A stretch of 64,000 nt of DNA, from contig NZ_PDKB01000007.1 in NCBI RefSeq assembly GCF_003316695.1, positions 62,001-126,000 on the forward strand, written 5' to 3'. A model generated the notes under the pieces. It searched no databases. It saw nothing but the letters and a program-made list of their open reading frames with translations, and had not been told where the DNA came from. This document shows positions 2,284-56,353 of the stretch, piece after piece; within the stretch, counting starts at the first letter, position 1; each line of letters begins with the position of its first letter. Position numbers and translations under genes: made by a program. The stretch comes from Aliarcobacter vitoriensis. GTDB taxonomy: Bacteria > Campylobacterota > Campylobacteria > Campylobacterales > Arcobacteraceae.

Positions 2284-2913
2284 TTACTCTTGTTCAGTTT
2301 TTTCTGATTTTGGGTTTTTTAAAGATTCTATTTTAGCATCTATTAAAGCTAAAGTTCGCTCTTGAGTTTTATATGAAATTTCAGGAAGTTCTCCACCAAA
2401 CATTTTTTCTGCCTCTTCAAAACCTTTTACGATTCCTTCTCTAACTTTTGCAAGATTATCTAAATTATCTCCAGCTATACCAATAGAAAACCCAGCAACT
2501 CTATCTGAAGTCTGTTTTATACCAAAGAAACCATTTTCACCAACCAAATTAGTTGCTTCTTCTTTAGTCAATTCTAAAATAGGTTTTCCTTTATATCCAA
2601 TATCTGATAAGCTCATATTGTCTATTTTACCAGTTCCACCTAAAAAATCTAAAACTCCTTGTTGAGCTTTTGTTGCTGTTAATTGTCCAAAAGCATTATC
2701 TTTTGTCATTTTAGATGCATTCATCTCAAATAAAATATATTGAGCATTCATAGATATAGCAACTTTTGCTGCTGAATTATTGATGATTTCATCTACTGAT
2801 TTTTCTTGTTCATTTTGTTTTTGAACTTGACTATTTTGCGTATTTTCGACCTTTGAACTTGCATTTTGTTGAAAAGCGTTTAGAGCTTGGTTTGTACTAC
2901 TTGAAATTTGCAT
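2284..2913 (-). CDS. conserved Campylobacterota hypothetical protein
   Basis: A 209-residue soluble protein with a low-complexity Gln/Asn/Ser-rich N-terminus (residues 1-45), a helical middle region with 'NAQYILFEMNASKM' and a C-terminal part containing 'GFFGIKQTSDRVAGFSIGIAGDN' and 'KVREGIVKGFEEAEKMFGG'. Proteins of this shape are found in many Campylobacterota, where they are sometimes labelled 'hydrogenase-4 component G'; nothing here supports a hydrogenase role and no hydrogenase genes are nearby. It has an AAGGAG ribosome binding site and lies alone just after the end of the polysaccharide operon. Confidence 0.6.
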   Translation of the reverse strand: MQISSSTNQALNAFQQNASSKVENTQNSQVQKQNEQEKSVDEIINNSAAKVAISMNAQYILFEMNASKMTKDNAFGQLTATKAQQGVLDFLGGTGKIDNMSLSDIGYKGKPILELTKEEATNLVGENGFFGIKQTSDRVAGFSIGIAGDNLDNLAKVREGIVKGFEEAEKMFGGELPEISYKTQERTLALIDAKIESLKNPKSEKTEQE

Positions 2914-2979
2914 AATAACTCCTTGTTTATTTACAGTAATTATACATTTCTTAAAATTAATTTAAACTAAAATTAATTT

Positions 2980-4722
2980 CTAAGAATTCAATTTATGATC
3001 AAATTCTGGAACAATCTCTTTTAATTTTACTATTTTATCTTCACAAATAAGAAGTTCTTCTATTTTTTTATTTAATTCATTTATATCAAATTTTGTTGAA
3101 CTTGCAACTGTAATAGACTCATATTGTGTTTTTGTATCGCTATCATTTATAAGTAGTTCTTCATATAGTTTTTCCCCTATTCTTAATCCACAAAATTCTA
3201 TTTGAATCTCATTTCTTCCACTTAATTCAATCATTTTTTTAGCTAAATCGACTATTTTGATAGGTTCACCCATATCTAGAATAAATATCTCCCCTCCTTT
3301 GCCAATACTTGCAGCTTGAAGCACAAGTTCACAAGCTTCTGGAATAAGCATAAAATATCTTGTTATATCAGGATGAGTTACTGTGATATTTTTTCCAGCT
3401 TCTATTTGTGATTTAAATTTAGGAATTACACTTCCACTACTTCCTAAAACATTTCCAAATCTAACAGCTATTATTTCTGTATTTTTTGCTTCTACATTTT
3501 GTGCATAAAGTTCACAAATTCGTTTTGTTGTACCCATAACATTTGTTGGACGAACCGCTTTATCTGTTGATATAAGAACAAACTTTTCTACACCATATTG
3601 TATAGATAAATCTATACAATTTTTTGTTCCAATTATATTATTTGTAATACCTTCTAAAATATTGTGTTCAACTAAAGGTACATGTTTATAAGCAGCTGCA
3701 TGAATAACAATTTCTGGATTATATTTTTCAAAAGTTTTTTCTAAAGTTTTTAGATCTCTTACACTTTGCATAATAGGGACTACATTTTTATCTCTTAATT
3801 CTTCTAAAATTGAGTAAAGATTAAATTCACTATGATCAAGTAATATAAGCTGTTTTGCTCCATAAACTTTACATTGTCTTGCTATTTCACTTCCTATACT
3901 TCCACCAGCTCCAGTTATAAGAACTATTTTATCTTTTATAAAATTTTGAATGGCATTTTTATCTAAATCTTTAGGTTTTCTAGCAAGTAAATCTTCTACT
4001 CCGATATCTTTAAGTTGTTTAGAAAACTCCTCTTTTTTTAGAATATTATTCATAGAAGGTAGAATTTTTATTTTATCAAATTTATCTTGCATAGATTCAT
4101 ATATAGTTTTAATCTGTTCTTGCGAAGCTGATGGCATAGCAATTACTATCAAATCAAATTTTTCTTTTTCAAAATAATCGTTATATTTTTCTTTTGAATA
4201 AATAGAAATACCATCTATACTTCTGTGATGTAAAATTTCATCATCATCTATAAAACAAATAAGTTTGTATTCACTACTTAAGAACTCTCTTTGAAGCTGA
4301 AGCCCAGCTTTTCCCGCTCCATATATTACTAAATTTTTTGTCTTCTTATTTTTTCCAACAGAGTGATAATATTTATAGACATAAACCAAAATATTTATAA
4401 TAAATGTGTAAAAAATCAAATCAATAAATAAAAGATTAAAAGAAATATGATAAAAATAATACAAAATAGGTGTATACACAATAAAACTAATCAATGCAAG
4501 TATAATTTTCATCAATCCTGTTTTTGTAGAAGCTTTTGACCAAGATAGTTTATAGTCATCAAAAAGTAAAAATGAAAACAGTATTCTAGTTGAAATTATG
4601 CTACTTAAAGCAAGTAATGAAAACTCTTTATGTATTAAAAAAGTCACTAAATAAAAAGTAAATATAGATACGATAATATTTACTATAATCCCTAAAAATC
4701 GTTTATCCCCTATATAACTCAT
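2980..4722 (-). CDS. membrane-bound nucleotide-sugar 4,6-dehydratase (CapD/WbpM/FlaA1-like)
   Basis: A 580-residue enzyme expected to convert UDP-GlcNAc to the 4-keto-6-deoxy sugar at the inner membrane. About four transmembrane helices occupy residues 10-120, a first Rossmann domain starts at 'VIYGAGKAGLQLQ' (about 132-144), and the catalytic short-chain dehydrogenase domain starts at 'VLITGAGGSIGSEIA' (about 271-285). The active-site segment reads STDKAVRPTNVMGTTKR, with Met where ordinary epimerases have Tyr, as in WbpM and PglF. Length is normal for the family. It is the last gene of the polysaccharide operon; its likely product feeds the WecA-like transferase encoded two genes upstream, or makes QuiNAc/FucNAc-type sugars. 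Confidence 0.92.
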   Translation of the reverse strand: MSYIGDKRFLGIIVNIIVSIFTFYLVTFLIHKEFSLLALSSIISTRILFSFLLFDDYKLSWSKASTKTGLMKIILALISFIVYTPILYYFYHISFNLLFIDLIFYTFIINILVYVYKYYHSVGKNKKTKNLVIYGAGKAGLQLQREFLSSEYKLICFIDDDEILHHRSIDGISIYSKEKYNDYFEKEKFDLIVIAMPSASQEQIKTIYESMQDKFDKIKILPSMNNILKKEEFSKQLKDIGVEDLLARKPKDLDKNAIQNFIKDKIVLITGAGGSIGSEIARQCKVYGAKQLILLDHSEFNLYSILEELRDKNVVPIMQSVRDLKTLEKTFEKYNPEIVIHAAAYKHVPLVEHNILEGITNNIIGTKNCIDLSIQYGVEKFVLISTDKAVRPTNVMGTTKRICELYAQNVEAKNTEIIAVRFGNVLGSSGSVIPKFKSQIEAGKNITVTHPDITRYFMLIPEACELVLQAASIGKGGEIFILDMGEPIKIVDLAKKMIELSGRNEIQIEFCGLRIGEKLYEELLINDSDTKTQYESITVASSTKFDINELNKKIEELLICEDKIVKLKEIVPEFDHKLNS

Positions 4723-46884: not shown

Positions 46885-48144
46885 CTACTTTAAAGAAAAA
46901 ATAAATTTCTCAAAACTCAATACTTCAATGTCATCTATACTCTCGTTTATATTATAAGTAATCAATAAATTTCTATATCTATTTTCTTTATTAAAATATG
47001 AAAAAGCATTCAGTTCTCTTTGCTTTGTTTTAGCTTCACTTATATCATAAGATACTTGATATAATTTATTTGTATCAAAAAAATCTATCTCTTGTAAGTC
47101 TTTTAAATAATATAAATTTTCAACTCTTTGATTTAAAACTATAAAAACCATATTTTCTAAACTCATTCCAAAATTTGTAGAAAATTTTGGTGCAATTTGT
47201 AAAAAACCATTATCTAATGAATATATTTTTTTAAAAGATTTTACAATCTCTTTTTGTTTATTATGAAATTTATCCAATCTTTTTAGTAAAAAAGTATCTT
47301 CAAAATAATTTATATACTCTTTTATAGTTTTATCACTAATATCAAAAGTTTGAGATAAAGTAGTGTAATTTATCAAATTTGTAGAATTTGATAAAAGATA
47401 AAAAAATAGCCTCTCTAAAATTTGTGAATTTCTTATTCCATATCTTGGAACAATATCTTGATATATAATATTTTTTACATAATTTAGCAAAATCTCTTTT
47501 TTTATTAACTCATCTTCTACATCAAAAACCTCATAAAATCCACCCCATTTTAGATACATTTCTTTTGCTCTTTGGATTTCTATATGATTTGATATTTGTT
47601 CAAATTCATTTGAATATTTTATATTTTTATAATCCAAAAACTCTTTGAAACTAAATGTATTTAGATGAATATTTAAGCTTCTCCCACTCAAAAGAGTATT
47701 AAGTTCATTTGAAAGCATAGAAGAATTTGAACCAGTTATGATATATTTAATATCACTTGTTTCATATTTACTTTTTATATAAACTTGCCAATTTTCAAAA
47801 TACTGTATTTCATCAAATATACAATATACTTTTCCTTTCGGATTGATAAGCTTTAAATACTCTTCATATATCACACCTAAAAATGAGGCATCATTTTTAT
47901 ACTCCAAAAACATAGGATTCTCTAAATTTATAAAAAATATATTTTGTGCATTTACTCCACTATTTATTAAGTGATTGATAGCTTGTTTAGATAAAGTACT
48001 TTTACCACATCTTCTAATACCAGTTATTGTAATAATCTGTTTTAATGGTAAATATGAGATTAATTTATCTAAGGCTTCTCTTCTTACACTTTTATAAACT
48101 TTATTTTGCCAATGCGGATTTTGTTCTATTAATATATTTTTCAT
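46885..48144 (-). CDS. AAA ATPase with DUF4143 domain, copy 1
   Basis: A 419-residue protein with an AAA_14-type ATPase: 'IITITGIRRCGKSTLSKQAI' (Walker A, about 35-54), 'VYCIFDEIQYFENWQVYIKSKYE' (Walker B, about 106-128) and 'YIITGSNSSMLSNELNTLLSGRS' (sensor region, about 133-155), followed by a winged-helix-like 'LERLFFYLLSNSTNLINYTTLSQTFDISDKTIKEYI' and a C-terminal DUF4143 PD-(D/E)xK-like part. Such genes are common accessory genes of unknown function in bacteria and archaea. It stands alone between the ArsC-like gene and the TonB receptor. It is only distantly like the second copy at 52689. Confidence 0.87.
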   Translation of the reverse strand: MKNILIEQNPHWQNKVYKSVRREALDKLISYLPLKQIITITGIRRCGKSTLSKQAINHLINSGVNAQNIFFINLENPMFLEYKNDASFLGVIYEEYLKLINPKGKVYCIFDEIQYFENWQVYIKSKYETSDIKYIITGSNSSMLSNELNTLLSGRSLNIHLNTFSFKEFLDYKNIKYSNEFEQISNHIEIQRAKEMYLKWGGFYEVFDVEDELIKKEILLNYVKNIIYQDIVPRYGIRNSQILERLFFYLLSNSTNLINYTTLSQTFDISDKTIKEYINYFEDTFLLKRLDKFHNKQKEIVKSFKKIYSLDNGFLQIAPKFSTNFGMSLENMVFIVLNQRVENLYYLKDLQEIDFFDTNKLYQVSYDISEAKTKQRELNAFSYFNKENRYRNLLITYNINESIDDIEVLSFEKFIFSLK

Positions 48145-48365: not shown

Positions 48366-50736
48366 CTAAAACTCCATTTTAATAGAAAATGCAACAGCTC
48401 TTGGATCACCTAATTGTTGAGCATTAGTCCAATAAACTTTATCTGTTAAATTTTGTACATTTAAGTTAAAAGTTGTAGGATATTTATCTAATTTAGTTTG
48501 ATATCTCAGTCCTGCATCATATAAAGTATATGAAGGCAAAACATCAGTATTTGAACTGTTTGCATAGCTTTTACCCGTATAGTATGCTCCAGCATTTATA
48601 GATAAACCATTTATATATGGAATATTATACTCAGCAAATAATTTTGCCATTTTTGTAGCAGCTTGAGTTGGTTTTTTACCTTCGAGAGATTTATCACTAT
48701 GTTTTTCTACACTTAAATCCATCAAAGTTCCACCACCCATAAGTGTTAGATTATCCGTAACTTTTCCTGTAACTCCAATTTCTATACCTTGATGTATAGC
48801 TTCTCCATCTTGAGTTAAAGTAGGAAGTGGTGTTGTAGGGATTTCATAAGAGTTTGCCTTTTCTATTCTAAATAATGAAGCTGTTAAAAGTGCTTTTTCA
48901 TCTAGCATACTATATTTTGCACCTATCTCATATTGAGTACTTTTATATGGATCTAAAACTTCATTTACATTTTGATACCAATCTTCAACAATCTCTCCAG
49001 CTTCTAAACTTTCCATATAAGTGGCATAAGTTGTAAGATTTTCAAATGGCTTATATATCAAAGATAATGTAGGAGTAAGTTCAGATACATCATATTTTGA
49101 ACTTTGTACACCACTTCTATAACTTGTATCTATAACAGTTGTATAATTTGCTCCAACCAAAGCACTCCAATTATCATTAAATACAATATCATCTCCTATT
49201 AATATATTTTTATATTCAGTTCTCCAACCAAGCTTTCGTGGTTGTGTTCCTGAAATACCATTATCAGACCAAAAAGAATTGTCAGGCTTAGCAAAATTTT
49301 TTAAATCACTTAAACGTATATCATTAGTAAAATTATAGTGATTTCTAAGGTCTGATGAAAAATAACTTTTTGTTGAATTTAAAGAGTGACCAATTGTTAA
49401 AGTGTGACTAATATTTCCTGTATCAAACTTTGAATCTAAAAATAGATTTAACCCATAGTTTTCAATTTTTGCCCAAGACCCTTTAACAAGATAAGAGTTA
49501 TTTACCATTGCATAACCATTTTGTACAAATAGGACTGCACTATTTTGTTTGGATTTTGTTTCTTCATAAAATAAATTTGTTCTTAAAGTAAAAATATCAT
49601 TGATATCATATCTTATACTATTTTCTATCTTATTTGATCTAAATTCACTTTCTATCCAATCAGGACTATAACTTTGGCTTTTATTAATACTTGCTCTATC
49701 AAAACCTGATGATGGGTTAAAACTATTATCCGATCCTTTTGTTAAAATATCTTTATATGAATATTTTATATCTGTATAAAAATTATCAGTTGGCTTCCAA
49801 TCAAACACAAAACTTATAGCTTTTTGTTCTTTTGTAGATGTATCAGATAATTCTCCGTCTTGATATAAACCGTTTATTCTATATCCAAAAGTATTATCTT
49901 CATCAAACTGTCCACCTAAATCAATATGTCCATAATATGACTCTTTTCCATAACTACCTATTGAGATATTTCTTAAATCTTTTGTTGTTGGTTTTTTAGT
50001 TATATAATTGACTGCTCCTCCAACTCTTCCACCACCATATAAAAATCCTGTTGCACCACTTATAATTTCTACTCTTTCTATATCTTGCATCATTGGTGTG
50101 CTTGCACTTTGATGTGCAGAAGGTATTCCATTAATAATGGGATTATAAACAGCAAATCCTCTCATAGTTGGAAAAGAGCTATCACCATTACCATTTAGTG
50201 CTCTAGATAATTGTTGAGTTGTTGGATTCATTTTAAAGATTTGTCGCATATCTTTTGCTTGTACATTTTCGATTAAGTCTTTTGAGATTATATTCATTGA
50301 GTATGGAGTGTCTTGTAATTTTCTTTCATTCCAAATACCAATTCCAGATGTTTCATCTACTAAATATCCACTTTCAGCAGAACCATTTTTATAATTAGAA
50401 CTAGAAACAGATATTTCATCTAAAACAGTAGTATTACCAAAGTTTTGATATTTTGGTTTTTCTATTATATATATTACACCATCTTCTTGAATAGCTTTTA
50501 ATTCATTTGGATTTAGTACACTATTTAAACTATCTAATACCGTACCCCCCCCCGAAACTTAACTTTTCTGAATCTACTATTTTATTCTTCAAATCTTTTG
50601 ATTTTGAAATATATGTTACATTATATTTCTTTACTATATTCTCTACTGCTTCTTGCAAACTTATCTCTTTTGCATTTAACATTGTTCCACTTAACATCAT
50701 TGATGTTAAAACTGAAATGAAAACTCTTCTTTTCAT
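48366..50736 (-). CDS. TonB-dependent siderophore receptor, out of frame at a G9 tract (phase-variable)
   Basis: The N-terminal part starts at 50736 with a signal peptide ('RRVFISVLTSMMLSGTMLNA') and an STN secretin/TonB domain ('ISLQEAVENIVKKYNVTYISKS'). At 50545-50553 the coding strand has nine G; the current frame then stops (TAG) 5 codons later. With eight (or eleven) G the frame runs straight on through 'TVLDSLNSVLNPNELKAIQ' into the plug and barrel, which are open from at least 50297 to 48366 and end '...GDPRAVAFSIKMEF', the usual outer-membrane barrel end. In frame it would be 789 residues. Ligand unknown; the plug has 'ERVEIISGATGFLYGGGRVGGAVNYITKKP'-type family residues. No fecI/fecR genes adjoin it although the STN domain is of transducer type. 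Confidence 0.9.
50545..50553 (-). repeat. G9 homopolymeric tract (phase-variation switch)
   Basis: Nine consecutive C on the plus strand, i.e. G9 in the coding strand of the TonB receptor gene, within its STN domain. It is the only homopolymeric G/C tract of this length in a very AT-rich window. Slippage to G8 restores the frame exactly (coding span 2370 bases, 790 codons). Confidence 0.95.
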
Positions 50737-50923: not shown

Positions 50924-51772
50924 TTAAATTTCTATACTATAAGAACAATAAAATTCTTCATCTTTTTGTAAAGATAAAATTCCTTTTTTATCTTCTATTT
51001 TTTGATTTGTATTTTTTTCATCAGCTATTCCAAACCAAGGTTCTATACAAACAAAAGGAGCATCATTTGGTTTTGACCAAACACCTAAATAAGGAAAGCT
51101 ATCAAATTTTACTTTTACCATACTTTTATTTTCTGCATTTTTTAAAGTAACTTGATTGATACCAAAATCATTAAAAACTAAAGCATCATCTTTAAATAAA
51201 TCTTTATCCAAATACAACTTACTATTTTCAAGGTTCAAATCTTGATTTTTATAAATCAAACCTTTCTCATCTAAAAAGTACCTTTTTGTACTTTTTATAT
51301 TTTCAAACTCCAAAAAATGACCAATTTGAGTATTAAAAGCAGGATGAGCACCTATTGAAAAGTACATCCTATCATCGCTTTTATTTTTCACTTTATATGA
51401 GATAATCAAACTATTTTTATCTAGTTTATAACTAATATTTAACTCAAAAAAGAAAGGATAAATCTCCAAACTTTTTTCATCATTTTTCAGTTTAAACTCT
51501 ATAAAATCACCTTCATTTTGTATAACTTCAAACTCTTTATCTCTGGCAATTCCATGTTGAGAAAGAGTGAATTTTTTATTTTTATAAAAATAACTATCCT
51601 CTTTTAGTCTTCCAACTATTGGAAAAAGTATAGGCGAGTGCCTAGCCCAATATTTACTGTTCGCTTGCCAAATATACTCAAAGTTTTCATCACACTTTTT
51701 TAAACTATTTAATTCTGCTCCAAAAGATTTGATTTGTGCTTTTATAAAACTATTTTTTATTTCATAGTTCAA
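50924..51772 (-). CDS. aldose 1-epimerase (galactose mutarotase)-like protein
   Basis: A 282-residue mutarotase-fold protein: 'SFGAELNSLKKCDENFEYIWQANSKYWARHSPILFPIVGRLK' (about 15-56), 'LSQHGIARDKEFEV' (catalytic-type His, about 69-82), 'MYFSIGAHPAFN' (about 142-153) and 'VCIEPWFGIAD' (about 243-253, catalytic Glu). The start is taken as TTG at 51772, which overlaps the beta-lactamase stop (TTGA) and has AAGGG 9 bases upstream; the longer open frame to 51871 lies within the beta-lactamase gene. It resembles YeaD/LACX-type hexose-phosphate mutarotases; the sugar is unknown. Confidence 0.85.
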   Translation of the reverse strand: MNYEIKNSFIKAQIKSFGAELNSLKKCDENFEYIWQANSKYWARHSPILFPIVGRLKEDSYFYKNKKFTLSQHGIARDKEFEVIQNEGDFIEFKLKNDEKSLEIYPFFFELNISYKLDKNSLIISYKVKNKSDDRMYFSIGAHPAFNTQIGHFLEFENIKSTKRYFLDEKGLIYKNQDLNLENSKLYLDKDLFKDDALVFNDFGINQVTLKNAENKSMVKVKFDSFPYLGVWSKPNDAPFVCIEPWFGIADEKNTNQKIEDKKGILSLQKDEEFYCSYSIEI

Positions 51773-52527
51773 TCTATAATCCCTTTTATTTTTAAAGCTT
51801 CCAAAGTTATAGCTTTTCTTTTTGCTAAATCTTCTTTTGTTTTTGTGTCGATATTTAAAGCAAAAAACCAAATATCAGTTTTTGTTTCAACATAGCCAAC
51901 ATACCAACCATATTTTCCTTCCCAACCAGTTTTTGCAAATATTTTATAATTCAAATTACTCTCATCAAGCATTATCTCTTTTGCAATATTTATATCATCT
52001 TTTTTAAATGGTAAATCATTTTTATAAAACTTCTTTAAAAAATCTATTTGCCCAAAAGCTGTTATTTTTAAACTCTCATCTAACCAAAAATCAGCTACAT
52101 CATCACCTATTATTCTATTTCCATAATCAAGTTCTTTTAAATAATACTTATACTTTTCAACTCCTATTTTTGAAGCAAACTCTTTATAGCACCAAACACA
52201 AGAACTTTTAAAAGCTGATTGCAAAGTTTGGTTTTTATTCCAAGAGTCAAATTCTCTTATTTTTTTATCCCAAATAATCAAAGAATCTTTATTTACAACA
52301 CCTTCATTTAAAGCTACCAATGTATTTGGAATTTTGAAAGTTGAAGCAGGTGAAAACTCTGTATTTGCTCGTTTATCATTGTAAATATCTATTTTCTTTG
52401 TGTTTAACGACTCTATTATTATTGTTCCATCAACACCATATTTTTTAAATATTTTTTCAAGTTCTATATCATTTGCCAGTAAATTTACTGAAAATAATAA
52501 AACTATAACTAATTTTACAAATTGCAT
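51769..52527 (-). CDS. class D (OXA-type) beta-lactamase
   Basis: A 252-residue periplasmic serine beta-lactamase with a signal peptide (about 1-18, cut near LLA-ND). Class D motifs are all present: S-T-F-K (62-65, nucleophile Ser62 and the Lys that is carboxylated), S-C-V (109-111), Y-G-N (135-137), Trp148 in 'DFWLDES', and K-T-G (199-201). It should hydrolyse penicillins; activity on other beta-lactams cannot be judged. Arcobacter-group genomes commonly carry such chromosomal enzymes. Its ribosome binding site (AAGGAT) and first codons lie in a 55-bp direct repeat, the other copy of which overlaps the end of the metal ATPase gene at 53913. Confidence 0.95.
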   Translation of the reverse strand: MQFVKLVIVLLFSVNLLANDIELEKIFKKYGVDGTIIIESLNTKKIDIYNDKRANTEFSPASTFKIPNTLVALNEGVVNKDSLIIWDKKIREFDSWNKNQTLQSAFKSSCVWCYKEFASKIGVEKYKYYLKELDYGNRIIGDDVADFWLDESLKITAFGQIDFLKKFYKNDLPFKKDDINIAKEIMLDESNLNYKIFAKTGWEGKYGWYVGYVETKTDIWFFALNIDTKTKEDLAKRKAITLEALKIKGIID

Positions 52528-52553
52528 TTTATATCCTTTTTATCACTATTTTT
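52499..52553. repeat. 55-bp direct repeat, copy 1 (start of beta-lactamase gene)
   Basis: Perfectly identical over 55 bases to 53897-53951 (offset 1398). It contains the ribosome binding site, ATG and first codons of the beta-lactamase gene. The two copies flank the DUF4143 ATPase gene at 52689. Confidence 0.95.
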
Positions 52554-52688
52554 GGAATTCTAACAAAATATTATTCAATTAATATAAATCAAATAATTCT
52601 TAAAACTTATTTTAAATATTATATATAAAACTTTAAAGTCTATTTTAAACTTTTATGTTAATATATAAAAAACATTTAAAGGTATTTT

Positions 52689-53882
52689 ATGATTAGATAT
52701 ATTCAAAATAAACAAATCCGAAATATTACTGCTGTAAATTTAGACTTTATAAGAGAACAATATCTTTTAAAACTTACTTCAAAAAATAGACTTGTAGGAC
52801 TTATTGGACAAAGAGGAGTAGGGAAAACTACTCTTTTACTTCAATATTTAAAACAAAACTTTAAACCTTTTGAATATCTATATTTTAGTGCAGATGATGT
52901 TTATATTATCAATAGTTCTATTTATGATATAGCTGATGAATTTGTAAAGATTGGCGGAAAAATCATCGTAATCGATGAAATACATAAATACCAAAATTGG
53001 GCAAATGAGATAAAAACTATATATGATAGTTTTCCTGAACTTATCATCCGATTTAGTGGCTCTTCAATGCTAAATATCTTAAATGAAAAATTTGATTTAA
53101 GTAGAAGATGTGTGATAAGTTATGTAAAACCTCTAAGTTTTAGGGAATTTTTAAATCTAAGCGAAAATATCAATATTCCTCAACTATCTTTTGAAGATAT
53201 TTTAAACAATCATAATGAATTAAGTAGCACATTAGCCCTAGAAAATCCAACTTTATATAAAAGTTTTTTGAAATACCTACAAATTGGTTTTTATCCATTT
53301 TTTATAGAAGATGAAGAGGAATATAAAAATAAACTTTTTAATGCTTGTGAAAAAATCATCAATGAAGATATTCCTTCTTTAAATAAGATAGAATATACTC
53401 ACTTAAGTATCTTTAAAAAATTTATAGCCAAACTAATTTATGCAAAAGTACCTTTTAAAGTAAATATTGCTGAACTTTGTAGAGAATTTGGAGTTTCTCA
53501 TCCTACACTTGCAACATATTTGGAGATTTTACAAAATTCAAAACTTATAAAACCTATCAAAAAACAGTCAAATAATATATCTAAAAAACCAGAAAAACTA
53601 CTCTTTGGAAACACAAATTTACTTTATACCTTTGCTGATGAATTTGGTGTTGAAATTGATATTGGAACTGTAAGAGAGACTTTTTTTGCAAGTTGTTTTG
53701 ATACGATTTATTATAGTGATATTGGAGATTTTAGCATAGATGGATATATCTTTGAAATTGGTGGAAAAAATAAAAAATTTACTCAAATCAAAGATACTTC
53801 AAACAGTTATCTAGTTATAGATACCGACTATACTATGGAAAAAAACAAAATCCCACTTTGGCTTTTTGGGCTTTTATATTGA
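52689..53882 (+). CDS. AAA ATPase with DUF4143 domain, copy 2, between direct repeats
   Basis: A 397-residue protein with Walker A 'LIGQRGVGKTTLLLQYLKQ' (about 38-56), Walker B 'KIIVIDEIHKYQNWANEIKTIYD' (about 93-115), sensor 'IRFSGSSMLNILNEKFDLSRR' (about 121-141), a winged-helix-like 'VNIAELCREFGVSHPTLATYLEILQNSKLIKPI' (about 259-291) and a C-terminal domain with 'DGYIFEIGGKNKKFTQIKD', a PD-(D/E)xK-like arrangement. It points opposite to its neighbours and is bounded by the 55-bp direct repeats, so it was inserted between the metal ATPase and beta-lactamase genes. Function unknown. Confidence 0.88.
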   Translation: MIRYIQNKQIRNITAVNLDFIREQYLLKLTSKNRLVGLIGQRGVGKTTLLLQYLKQNFKPFEYLYFSADDVYIINSSIYDIADEFVKIGGKIIVIDEIHKYQNWANEIKTIYDSFPELIIRFSGSSMLNILNEKFDLSRRCVISYVKPLSFREFLNLSENINIPQLSFEDILNNHNELSSTLALENPTLYKSFLKYLQIGFYPFFIEDEEEYKNKLFNACEKIINEDIPSLNKIEYTHLSIFKKFIAKLIYAKVPFKVNIAELCREFGVSHPTLATYLEILQNSKLIKPIKKQSNNISKKPEKLLFGNTNLLYTFADEFGVEIDIGTVRETFFASCFDTIYYSDIGDFSIDGYIFEIGGKNKKFTQIKDTSNSYLVIDTDYTMEKNKIPLWLFGLLY

Positions 53883-53896
53883 TAGATAAAATAGCA

Positions 53897-53951
53897 AAAA
53901 CTATAACTAATTTTACAAATTGCATTTTATATCCTTTTTATCACTATTTTT
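53897..53951. repeat. 55-bp direct repeat, copy 2 (end of metal ATPase gene)
   Basis: Identical to 52499-52553. On the minus strand it encodes the last codons of the P-type ATPase (stop at 53913) and, in another frame, a duplicate of the beta-lactamase ribosome binding site and start (MQFVKLVIV), which runs on into unrelated codons. It shows that the ATPase and beta-lactamase genes once adjoined here. Confidence 0.95.
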
Positions 53952-56009
53952 TAAAATTCTCATAGAATTAAATATTGCTAGAAGTGCAACACCTACATCA
54001 GCAAAAATTGCCTCTTTCATACCAATTATTGCATCTGCTCCTAAGATTAGAAATGCTATCTTTATACTCATAACAAATATGATATTTTGATACACAATAG
54101 TTTTTGTTTTTTTAGCTATTTTTATAGCATCACTAATCGCATTTAAGTTATCATTTAAAACTATTATATCAGCTGATTTTATAGCTAAATCACTTCCAAC
54201 ACCACCCATAGCAAAACCTATATCCGAATTTGCTAAAGTTGGAGCATCATTTATTCCATCACCAACAAAAGCTGTGGTTTTAGCAGTTTTAAACTTAATT
54301 TCTTCATAAATCTTTAGCTTATCTTGTGGTAAAAGTTCATATTTTACCTCATCAATTCCCAAATCTTTTGCAACTTCTAAAGCAACTTCTTTTTTATCAC
54401 CTGTTAGCATAAAAGTTTTTAAAATATTTAATTTCTTTAACTCTTCTATAAAACTTTTTGCTTCAGATTTTACTATATCACTTACGACTATATATCCAAC
54501 AAATTTGGAATTTATTGCAACATAAACAACATTTAAACTATCTTCAATTTTTTCTAATTTTACACCAAATTTTTCAAGTAATCTTTCATTACCAACCAAA
54601 ATATCGCTATTTAAAACTTTTGCTTTCATTCCTAAACCACTTATTTCTTCATTGAAACTAACTTCTTTTAGATTTAACTCTTTATTGTAAGCTTTTACTA
54701 TTGATTTTCCTATTGGATGAGTAGAAAAACTCTCAACTAAAGCACAATTTTTAAGTAGTTCATCTTCGCTTATTCCAAAAGATTTTATTTTTGTAACTTC
54801 AAAAACACCTTTTGTCAAAGTTCCAGTTTTATCAAAAACTATATTTTCAATCTCAGTCAATTTTTCTACATAGTTTGCACCTTTTACTAAAACACCTTTT
54901 TTAGAAATAGCACCAATAGCACTAAAAAATGACAATGGAACAGATACAACTAAAGCACAAGGGCAAGATATAACCAAAAATACCAATGCTCTTTCAATCC
55001 AATCTGAAAAATTTGCATTTTCTATAAAAAGTGAAGGTAAAAATGCCAAAAGTACTGCAAGAAGTACAACTATTGGAGTGTAAACTCCAGCAATTTTTGA
55101 TATAAGTTTTTCTGCATTTGCCTTTTTTGAACTTGCATTTTCTATTAATTCGATAATCTTTGCAATTGTTGAATCTTTATACAAAGAAGTTACTTTAATA
55201 TATGAAGCATTTGAGATATTGATAAAACCACTTAAAACATTTTCATTTGCTTTTAAAGTTTTTGGTTTAAACTCTCCTGTAATTGCACTTGTATCAAAAG
55301 AACTATTGTCAATTAAAATTCCATCAACAGGTACTTTTTCTCCAACTTTTACCAATATCGTATCTCCTATTTTTACATCTTCAGGAGATTTTTGAACTAT
55401 TTTGTCATCTTCTTGTACATTTGCAAATTCTGGTTTTATATCCAATAAAGAGTTAATACTATCTCTTGAATTATTAACTGCAACTCCTTGGAACATCTCT
55501 CCTACTTTATAAAAAATCATAACAGAGATTCCTTCTACAAAATCGCCCAATAAAAATGCTCCAATAGTGGCTATGGACATTAAAAAATTCTCATCAAAGA
55601 TTTTCCCAGTTTTGAAGTTTTGCAAAGCTTTGTATAAAACATCATAAGCAACCAAAATATAGGCTATCAAATATCCTACAATTTTGTAATCATTTGATAA
55701 ATAGTTATATGATATGAATGTTAAAACAATTGATATTATAGTTAGTAAAAGAAGTTTTTTATCCAGAAGTTGCCAAAAAGTTCTTTGTGTGTTTTTATCA
55801 TCTTCTACAATAATAACTTCTTTTTCTATTTTTTGTATCTCTTTTTCTATTTTTTCTCTTAAATCATCTTTGCTATTTTGTTCAAAAGTCAATGTTGATG
55901 TTGAAAAATTGAGTTTGACATTTGAAAGTTCTTCCATATTATTTAAAGCTTTTTCTATTTTTAAAGCACAAGAGGCACAATCCAAATTTTTTAATTTAAC
56001 TTTTTTCAT
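53913..56009 (-). CDS. Zn/Cd/Pb-translocating P-type ATPase
   Basis: A 698-residue P1B-type ATPase exporting divalent soft metals. N-terminal heavy-metal domain 'KLKNLDCASCALKIEKAL' (about 5-22, CxxC), transmembrane 'VISCPCALVVSVPLSFFSAIGA' with the CPC motif (about 344-365), 'ITGEFKP' (actuator TGE), 'VFDKTGTLTKGVFEV' (phosphorylated Asp, about 391-405), 'HPIGKSIVKAY' and 'AFVGDGINDAPTLANSDIGFAMG' (about 608-630). The CPCALV form and the ArsR/SmtB regulator encoded immediately upstream fit a ZntA/CadA exporter rather than a copper pump. The last codons fall in the 55-bp repeat. Confidence 0.94.
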   Translation of the reverse strand: MKKVKLKNLDCASCALKIEKALNNMEELSNVKLNFSTSTLTFEQNSKDDLREKIEKEIQKIEKEVIIVEDDKNTQRTFWQLLDKKLLLLTIISIVLTFISYNYLSNDYKIVGYLIAYILVAYDVLYKALQNFKTGKIFDENFLMSIATIGAFLLGDFVEGISVMIFYKVGEMFQGVAVNNSRDSINSLLDIKPEFANVQEDDKIVQKSPEDVKIGDTILVKVGEKVPVDGILIDNSSFDTSAITGEFKPKTLKANENVLSGFINISNASYIKVTSLYKDSTIAKIIELIENASSKKANAEKLISKIAGVYTPIVVLLAVLLAFLPSLFIENANFSDWIERALVFLVISCPCALVVSVPLSFFSAIGAISKKGVLVKGANYVEKLTEIENIVFDKTGTLTKGVFEVTKIKSFGISEDELLKNCALVESFSTHPIGKSIVKAYNKELNLKEVSFNEEISGLGMKAKVLNSDILVGNERLLEKFGVKLEKIEDSLNVVYVAINSKFVGYIVVSDIVKSEAKSFIEELKKLNILKTFMLTGDKKEVALEVAKDLGIDEVKYELLPQDKLKIYEEIKFKTAKTTAFVGDGINDAPTLANSDIGFAMGGVGSDLAIKSADIIVLNDNLNAISDAIKIAKKTKTIVYQNIIFVMSIKIAFLILGADAIIGMKEAIFADVGVALLAIFNSMRILKNSDKKDIKCNL

Positions 56010-56011
56010 TT

Positions 56012-56353
56012 TTAACCTTTTGTAATGTGTTCAAGTCCCATATCATAAATCTTTTTGATATGTTCATCGTTGAGTGAATAATAAACCCACTTCCCCACTT
56101 TTTTTGATTTTATAATTTTTGCATTTTTTAAAGCTTTTAATTGATGAGAAATAGCTGACTGGCTCATATTTAAAAGTTCACTTATTGCTCCAACACAAAG
56201 TTCTTCTTCTTGTAAAACAGAAATTATTTTTATTCTAGTTGTATCAGCAAAGGCTTTAAAAAGTTCTGCTACATCATAAAGTATCTCTTCCTCAACTAAA
56301 TTTTCCTTTGCTCTATCAAACTCTTTTGAATAATCACAACATCTATCTTTCAT
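56012..56353 (-). CDS. ArsR/SmtB-family metal-responsive repressor
   Basis: A 113-residue winged-helix regulator. It has an N-terminal Cys pair 'DRCCDYSKEFD' (about 2-12), 'LFKAFADTTRIKIISVL' (about 31-47), 'EELCVGAISELLNMSQSAISHQLKALKNAKII' (about 50-81, containing the E-L-C-V metal motif and the recognition helix) and 'VGKWVYYSLNDEHIKKIYD' (about 86-104). The combination of N-terminal Cys and ELCV matches CadC/CmtR-like Cd/Pb/Zn sensors. It lies 2 bases upstream of the P-type ATPase gene it presumably controls; a matching operator is just upstream. Confidence 0.93.
   Translation of the reverse strand: MKDRCCDYSKEFDRAKENLVEEEILYDVAELFKAFADTTRIKIISVLQEEELCVGAISELLNMSQSAISHQLKALKNAKIIKSKKVGKWVYYSLNDEHIKKIYDMGLEHITKG

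Follow-up and report, generated by a model that had tools for sequence, protein, structure and literature searches.

A solitary ATPase gene probably inserted with a long target duplication between cadA and blaOXA in Aliarcobacter vitoriensis

INTRODUCTION

Restriction-modification (R-M) genes of Helicobacter pylori have been described as inserting with long target duplications (Nobusato et al. 2000, Gene 259:99; PMC3031569, PMC1643837, PMC4978471). The locus and its relatives studied here resemble those insertions in the long, variable direct repeats that bracket a defense gene, in the comparison with an empty site, in the lack of a transposase and in the phylum. They differ from them in cargo, which is a solitary PDC-S01-type ATPase gene (or, in our comparison family, Abi_2) and not an R-M gene complex, and also in that the scar is found in a set of loci built around Bacteroidales and that the repeats often span a stop/start overlap. 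R-M cargo is a frequent association of such insertions and not part of their definition. Insertion sequences (IS) likewise make direct repeats when they insert, but these are short and vary little in length, 8 to 10 bp for IS1 and 4 bp for IS5 (PMC3031569), whereas the repeats reported below range from about 17 to 211 bp and come with no transposase.

The accessible parts of the report on PDC-S01 (PADLOC; PMC12988326) place it among fusions of an ATPase with a PD-(D/E)XK domain that have undergone many transfers, and in those parts we found no discussion of how the gene inserts. The ATPase studied here is like PDC-S01 in that it matches the profiles, and unlike it in that its C-terminal quarter lies outside the match. 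Judging from an open literature library, the insertion process is already known, and what is new is the class of cargo, the repeat statistics across the family and the finding of the scar in Abi_2 as a comparison family.

RESULTS

Exact 55-bp repeats bracket a single ATPase gene

The window, by which we mean the whole stretch of 64,000 nucleotides that was analyzed, contains the following features around the insertion.

50924 to 51790, minus strand: aldose 1-epimerase-type gene, presumed last gene of the ancestral operon (Pfam scan; cadA-epimerase adjacency in relatives)
51769 to 52527, minus strand: blaOXA, class D beta-lactamase, intact, 252 amino acids (NF012161, 282.1 bits against a cut-off of 250)
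52499 to 52553: direct repeat copy 1, with the ribosome-binding site, start codon and first codons of blaOXA, read on the minus strand
52554 to 53896: inserted unit between the repeats, 1343 bp
53833 to 53925, minus strand: dead frame of 30 codons running from the duplicated OXA start antisense into the 3' end of the ATPase gene (MQFVKLVIVFAILSINIKAQKAKVGFCFFP)
53897 to 53951: direct repeat copy 2, with the 3' end of the cadA-type gene and a dead duplicate of the OXA start; homologous to the cadA end of sister species G003
53913 to 56009, minus strand: cadA-type heavy-metal P-type ATPase, intact, 698 amino acids (TIGR01512, 475.1 bits against a cut-off of 313.5)
56012 to 56353, minus strand: ArsR/SmtB-type regulator, first gene of the metal operon (HTH_5, 59.9 bits against 22)

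A repeat search of the window returned 52499-52553 and 53897-53951 as a two-copy family of 55 nt, 100% identical and spaced by 1398 bp, exactly as a preliminary description of this DNA had it; the "1398-bp unit" of that description is correct as the repeat spacing and is made up of the insert, 1343 bp, and one repeat copy, 55 bp. When up to 3 mismatches are tolerated, the 30-nt core of the repeat matches the 2.43-Mb draft genome only at the two window sites, which excludes a dispersed genomic repeat, and the reversed pattern gave 0 matches in the same search. The best repeat between the two flanks scores 55, against the chance level of about 10 to 12 after shuffling, and none of the genomes examined carries both repeats without the insertion.

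The reading frames bear out the earlier assignment of one copy to the beta-lactamase start and of the other to the end of the metal ATPase with a dead start. Copy 1 contains AAGGATATAAAATG, the ribosome-binding site and start of OXA, whose protein begins there with MQFVKLVIVLLFSVNLLAND and aligns to the OXA proteins of relatives, while on the minus strand cadA reads across copy 2 and terminates in RILKNSDKKDIKCNL followed by the stop. Both neighbors are intact, with scores above the cut-offs of the curated class D family and of the cadmium-type P-type ATPases, respectively. The ATPase gene, on the plus strand, is the sole gene of the insert; OXA, cadA and arsR are all on the minus strand. When the insert and one repeat copy are removed in silico, the cadA stop overlaps the OXA start (AAGGATATAAAATGCAATTTGTAA).

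Relatives support an earlier arsR-cadA-OXA-epimerase order

The preliminary description held that cadA must have overlapped blaOXA in the ancestor. In G020, OXA comes directly after cadA with a gap of 9 bp; in four other genomes (G007, G025, G002 and G016), cadA is followed by the aldose-epimerase gene that comes after OXA in the window; and OXA followed by the epimerase gene is seen in many genomes of the genus. The sister species G003 is 88 to 90% identical to the window in nucleotide sequence from cadA outward; its cadA has the same length as that of the window (ends NSDKINKECHL versus NSDKKDIKCNL, each before the stop), and an ATG occupies the corresponding place in the overlap. Together these genomes support arsR-cadA-OXA-epimerase as the earlier order, presumably one operon, and the adjacency of cadA and blaOXA with it, but "must" exceeds the evidence. 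G003 has neither OXA nor the ATPase at its cadA locus, and its stretch just past the cadA stop shows a likeness that is short and suggestive only. Among the genomes examined, no exact empty cadA-OXA junction was found for the window insertion, G020 and G003 being partial relatives.

At the G003 locus, the place that the ATPase and OXA genes take in the window is occupied by a CRISPR array, which starts no more than about 50 bp beyond the cadA stop. The OXA and downstream aldose-epimerase frames of the window overlap (51769-51790), so the pair is tightly coupled.

The inserted gene encodes a PDC-S01-type ATPase

52598 to 52688, plus strand: upstream region conserved with ATPase homologs, with a TTTAAA..TTTAAA operator-like palindrome and an extended -10-like TATG.TA.AAT (12 homologs aligned)
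52689 to 53882, plus strand: AAA_14 ATPase with a DUF4143-like C terminus, 397 amino acids, PDC-S01 homolog (Pfam, PADLOC, structural model, fold search)

The gene had been called a DUF4143 ATPase. The ATPase assignment is clear (AAA_14, 88.6 against a cut-off of 27), whereas DUF4143, at 27.6, falls just under its cut-off of 28.1 (Pfam). The best match to the PDC-S01 profiles of PADLOC (PDLC04789, 3.9e-28) covers residues 24-299 and thus excludes the C-terminal quarter of the protein. An AlphaFold2 model built from 40 homologs is confident, with a mean pLDDT of 88.8. Among solved structures, it is most similar to the archaeal ATPases 2fna (Z 16.2, 262 aligned, rmsd 4.1) and 2qen (Z 15.6), and next to STAND ATPases of the CED-4/NLR type. 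With its borderline DUF4143 score and its invariant E330, D347, E356 and K362, alongside invariant R329 and G358, the C terminus is a candidate PD-(D/E)XK domain; a Foldseek search with this domain by itself returned no PDB entry at E <= 0.001. The ATPase gene is a stand-alone member of a widespread family that is suspected of phage defense.

The DNA conserved in close homologs comprises the ORF and about 90 bp upstream, and nothing beyond; nucleotide homology with G006 and G015 begins at 52598-52600. These two genomes hold the closest homologs (96% amino acid identity), which adjoin other defense genes and lack repeats.

Several observations in the window and its relatives stand beside these results. 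A second AAA_14/DUF4143 ATPase gene of the window (46885-48144, on the strand opposite to that of the inserted gene) matches PDC-S01 more strongly (1.4e-102) and has no flanking repeat. On contig C65 of the same genome (3945-5192), an ATPase gene of the same superfamily has a 37-bp direct repeat (86%) in its flanks and is followed by the remnant of a window-type ATPase C terminus. In six genomes (G006, G015, G001, G014, G029 and G004), a DEAD-box helicase gene lies beside OXA, and the adjoining stretch varies in content (a methyltransferase gene with an unknown gene, Septu/PDC-M62-like pairs, or the 96% identical ATPase gene); this stretch looks like a defense-gene hotspot. Finally, the 5' region of a TonB-type receptor gene contains a G9 tract (C9 on the plus strand, 50545-50553), the only C/G run of at least 8 in the window, which puts the signal-peptide portion and the remainder of the gene (48366-50297) in different frames; the receptor is likely phase variable and currently off.

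The left end of the insert and the promoter of blaOXA

52554 to 52597, minus strand: left 44 bp of the insert, possible new or relic OXA promoter, with an extended -10-like TTTTGTTAGAAT (52557-52568) facing blaOXA

As the preliminary description had noted, the beta-lactamase gene is removed from the metal operon, the insert lying between blaOXA and arsR-cadA. Being cut off from that operon, blaOXA needs a promoter of its own, and the insert may have supplied a new one. The element TTTTGTTAGAAT is absent from the list of a simple sigma-70 scan, which returned promoter-like sites no more often than in shuffled sequence. The left 44 bp resemble the OXA upstream regions of G015, G014 and G010, and because of this likeness to three species they may be a relic OXA promoter.

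The same likeness would be expected if a strain with the ATPase gene next to OXA, the latter under its own promoter, had recombined with a cadA-OXA strain, which would leave two OXA starts and would make the 44 bp the native OXA promoter and not part of an insert. Against the OXA promoters of the three species, the 44 bp rank in the top 1 to 3 of 185 upstream regions, and the blastn match to G014 extends to 52589; however, matches as good as these (score 32) also occur in the null, and the OXA promoters of the three species are not independent of one another. Moreover, the first 16 bases of the repeat are cadA coding sequence in the sister species G003, so copy 1 carries cadA-derived bases, as target duplication predicts. 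We consider such a recombination unlikely.

Flanking repeats are enriched around related ATPase genes

We compared 400 bp upstream with 150 bp downstream of related ATPase genes and counted a score of at least 16 as positive. Flanking direct repeats were present at 17 of the 157 nonredundant ATPase loci of a first set, which includes the window locus, against 9 of 2844 sham segments taken from the same loci (p = 1.5e-16). A set built around Bacteroidales gave 10/72 against 2/827 sham segments; two of its 10 positives were already in the first set, so that the new loci amount to 8/70. Similar ATPase genes with flanking duplications, which the preliminary description had proposed to look for, thus exist elsewhere. 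Ordinary ORFs of the same loci served as a further control and had repeats in 7 of 569 cases, compared with a hand-curated 18 of 227 ATPase loci (p = 5.8e-06, a value that refers to 18/227; strict removal of all eight discounted loci leaves 17/227). The repeats discounted on inspection, at five loci of the first set and three of the second, were low-complexity, dispersed or paralogue repeats. The exact 65-bp repeat of one further locus (L107) is ambiguous because a related stretch (83%) is present in another genome.

Across the cases, the duplications measure about 17 to 211 bp, that of the window being 55 bp. The units are mostly trimmed to promoter and ORF, with 0 to 56 bp after the stop; neither conserved ends nor inverted repeats were seen among them.

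One insertion could be compared directly with its empty site. The left arm (257-1339) and right arm (2651-3096) of a related ATPase locus in G018 align to overlapping segments of the congener G022 (2531-1449 and 1659-1222); the 211 bp of overlap stand on either side of the ATPase unit, which measures about 1311 bp, in copies about 90% identical. The duplicated stretch lies at the 3' end of a gene for a chemotaxis receptor (named from its sequence and not from a family scan), and the receptor keeps a G022-type end and is intact. Insertion with target duplication is thus shown directly for a related ATPase gene, and the earlier proposal of a duplication-type event at the window locus is strengthened by this empty site and by repeats far longer than IS duplications.

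Other cases follow the same design. In Sulfurimonas, an exact 32-bp repeat lies at the stop/start overlap of a gene pair, and both genes are intact; no empty site was found for it, the downstream gene being present in only 2 of 100 genomes. Elsewhere the repeats lie at the 3' ends of a RelE-type gene (66 bp) and of histidine-kinase genes (17 and 102 bp) and, in one case (57 bp), at the beginning of a glycosyltransferase gene; all these genes are named from their sequences and not from a family scan.

An unrelated defense family carries the same scar

Abi_2 (PF07751), an unrelated single-gene defense family, was put through the same repeat test in the same phylum. Repeats were found at 3 of 36 loci (86 bp; 54 bp with a further 90 bp; 109 bp), a rate above that of the control ORFs (p = 0.017) and not significantly different from that of the ATPases (p = 0.45), with 36 loci giving little power. 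One of these repeats lies at the overlapping mod/res junction of what appears, from its sequence, to be a type III R-M operon. At L402 (G133), an Abi_2 gene lies between type III mod-like and res-like genes, and the duplicated res start on the left is joined directly to a stretch further inside res, as if a longer duplication had lost its middle. The comparison points to a generic route and to a scar that is not specific to the ATPase.

DISCUSSION

We consider it likely that a solitary ATPase gene inserted at the overlap of the cadA stop and the blaOXA start by a generic insertion with long, variable target duplication. The gene would have entered with its own promoter and operator and duplicated 55 bp of its target, so that each neighbor retained a full copy of its own end and both stayed intact. 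Most probably, incoming DNA would be joined illegitimately where the two strands of the target are broken at distant or staggered positions, with fill-in making the duplication, and selection would retain those insertions in which the duplication makes the flanking genes whole again. The survivors found at gene junctions are consistent with such joining and selection, and the general process would deliver stand-alone defense-type genes to gene junctions. Since about 9 of 10 ATPase loci have no repeat, other routes of entry, or decay, are needed as well. The repeat-free closest homologs in G006 and G015, the failure to find an exact empty site for the window insertion and the likeness of the left 44 bp to OXA promoters also weigh against this reading.

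A different origin of the repeats would be that the ATPase protein drives the insertion of its own gene, as a one-gene mobile element, by nicking strands far apart, with fill-in producing the long, variable duplications. The marked excess of repeats at loci of this family in both samples, the trimming of the unit to promoter and ORF, the invariant acidic and lysine residues of the C terminus in a protein with an AAA+ ATPase, a winged helix and a DUF4143-like domain, and the place of PDC-S01 among much-transferred ATPase-nuclease fusions would all fit. This was the idea that we favored earlier, and it was set back by Abi_2: as an unrelated family has the scar at a similar rate, the scar cannot count as evidence of self-movement by the ATPase. 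The missing unit ends and inverted repeats, and the lack of a structural match for the C-terminal domain alone, also speak against it. Self-transposition by the ATPase is thus not supported, and we rate it as distinctly unlikely at this locus; the broader proposal, that PDC-S01 ATPases are one-gene mobile elements whose ATPase-nuclease nicks gene junctions widely, seems to us more doubtful still, although, if true, it would explain the spread of one of the commonest candidate defense genes. In the generic insertion that we favor, the ATPase gene is probably carried as cargo, and its product would not be the enzyme that inserts it.

A classical IS or DDE transposon event, a repeat that arose by chance or is dispersed in the genome, or an artifact of assembly is hardly credible, given an insert with no transposase, units with no shared ends, duplications of variable length, a repeat with only two copies in the genome and the same design in independent genomes.

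At the locus itself, the insertion illustrates the separation of a beta-lactamase gene from a metal-resistance operon, and it may have changed the regulation of blaOXA. Beyond it, the scar is still present at about 1 in 10 PDC-S01-type ATPase loci as well as at the three Abi_2 loci, and it provides a simple sequence signature by which such insertions can be counted, dated and tested. The process explains how genes come to be placed inside tight or overlapping operons with neither neighbor broken. Together, our results suggest that unrelated solitary defense-type genes commonly enter by insertion with long target duplication, which seems to be a frequent and little-understood path by which single genes reach genomes.
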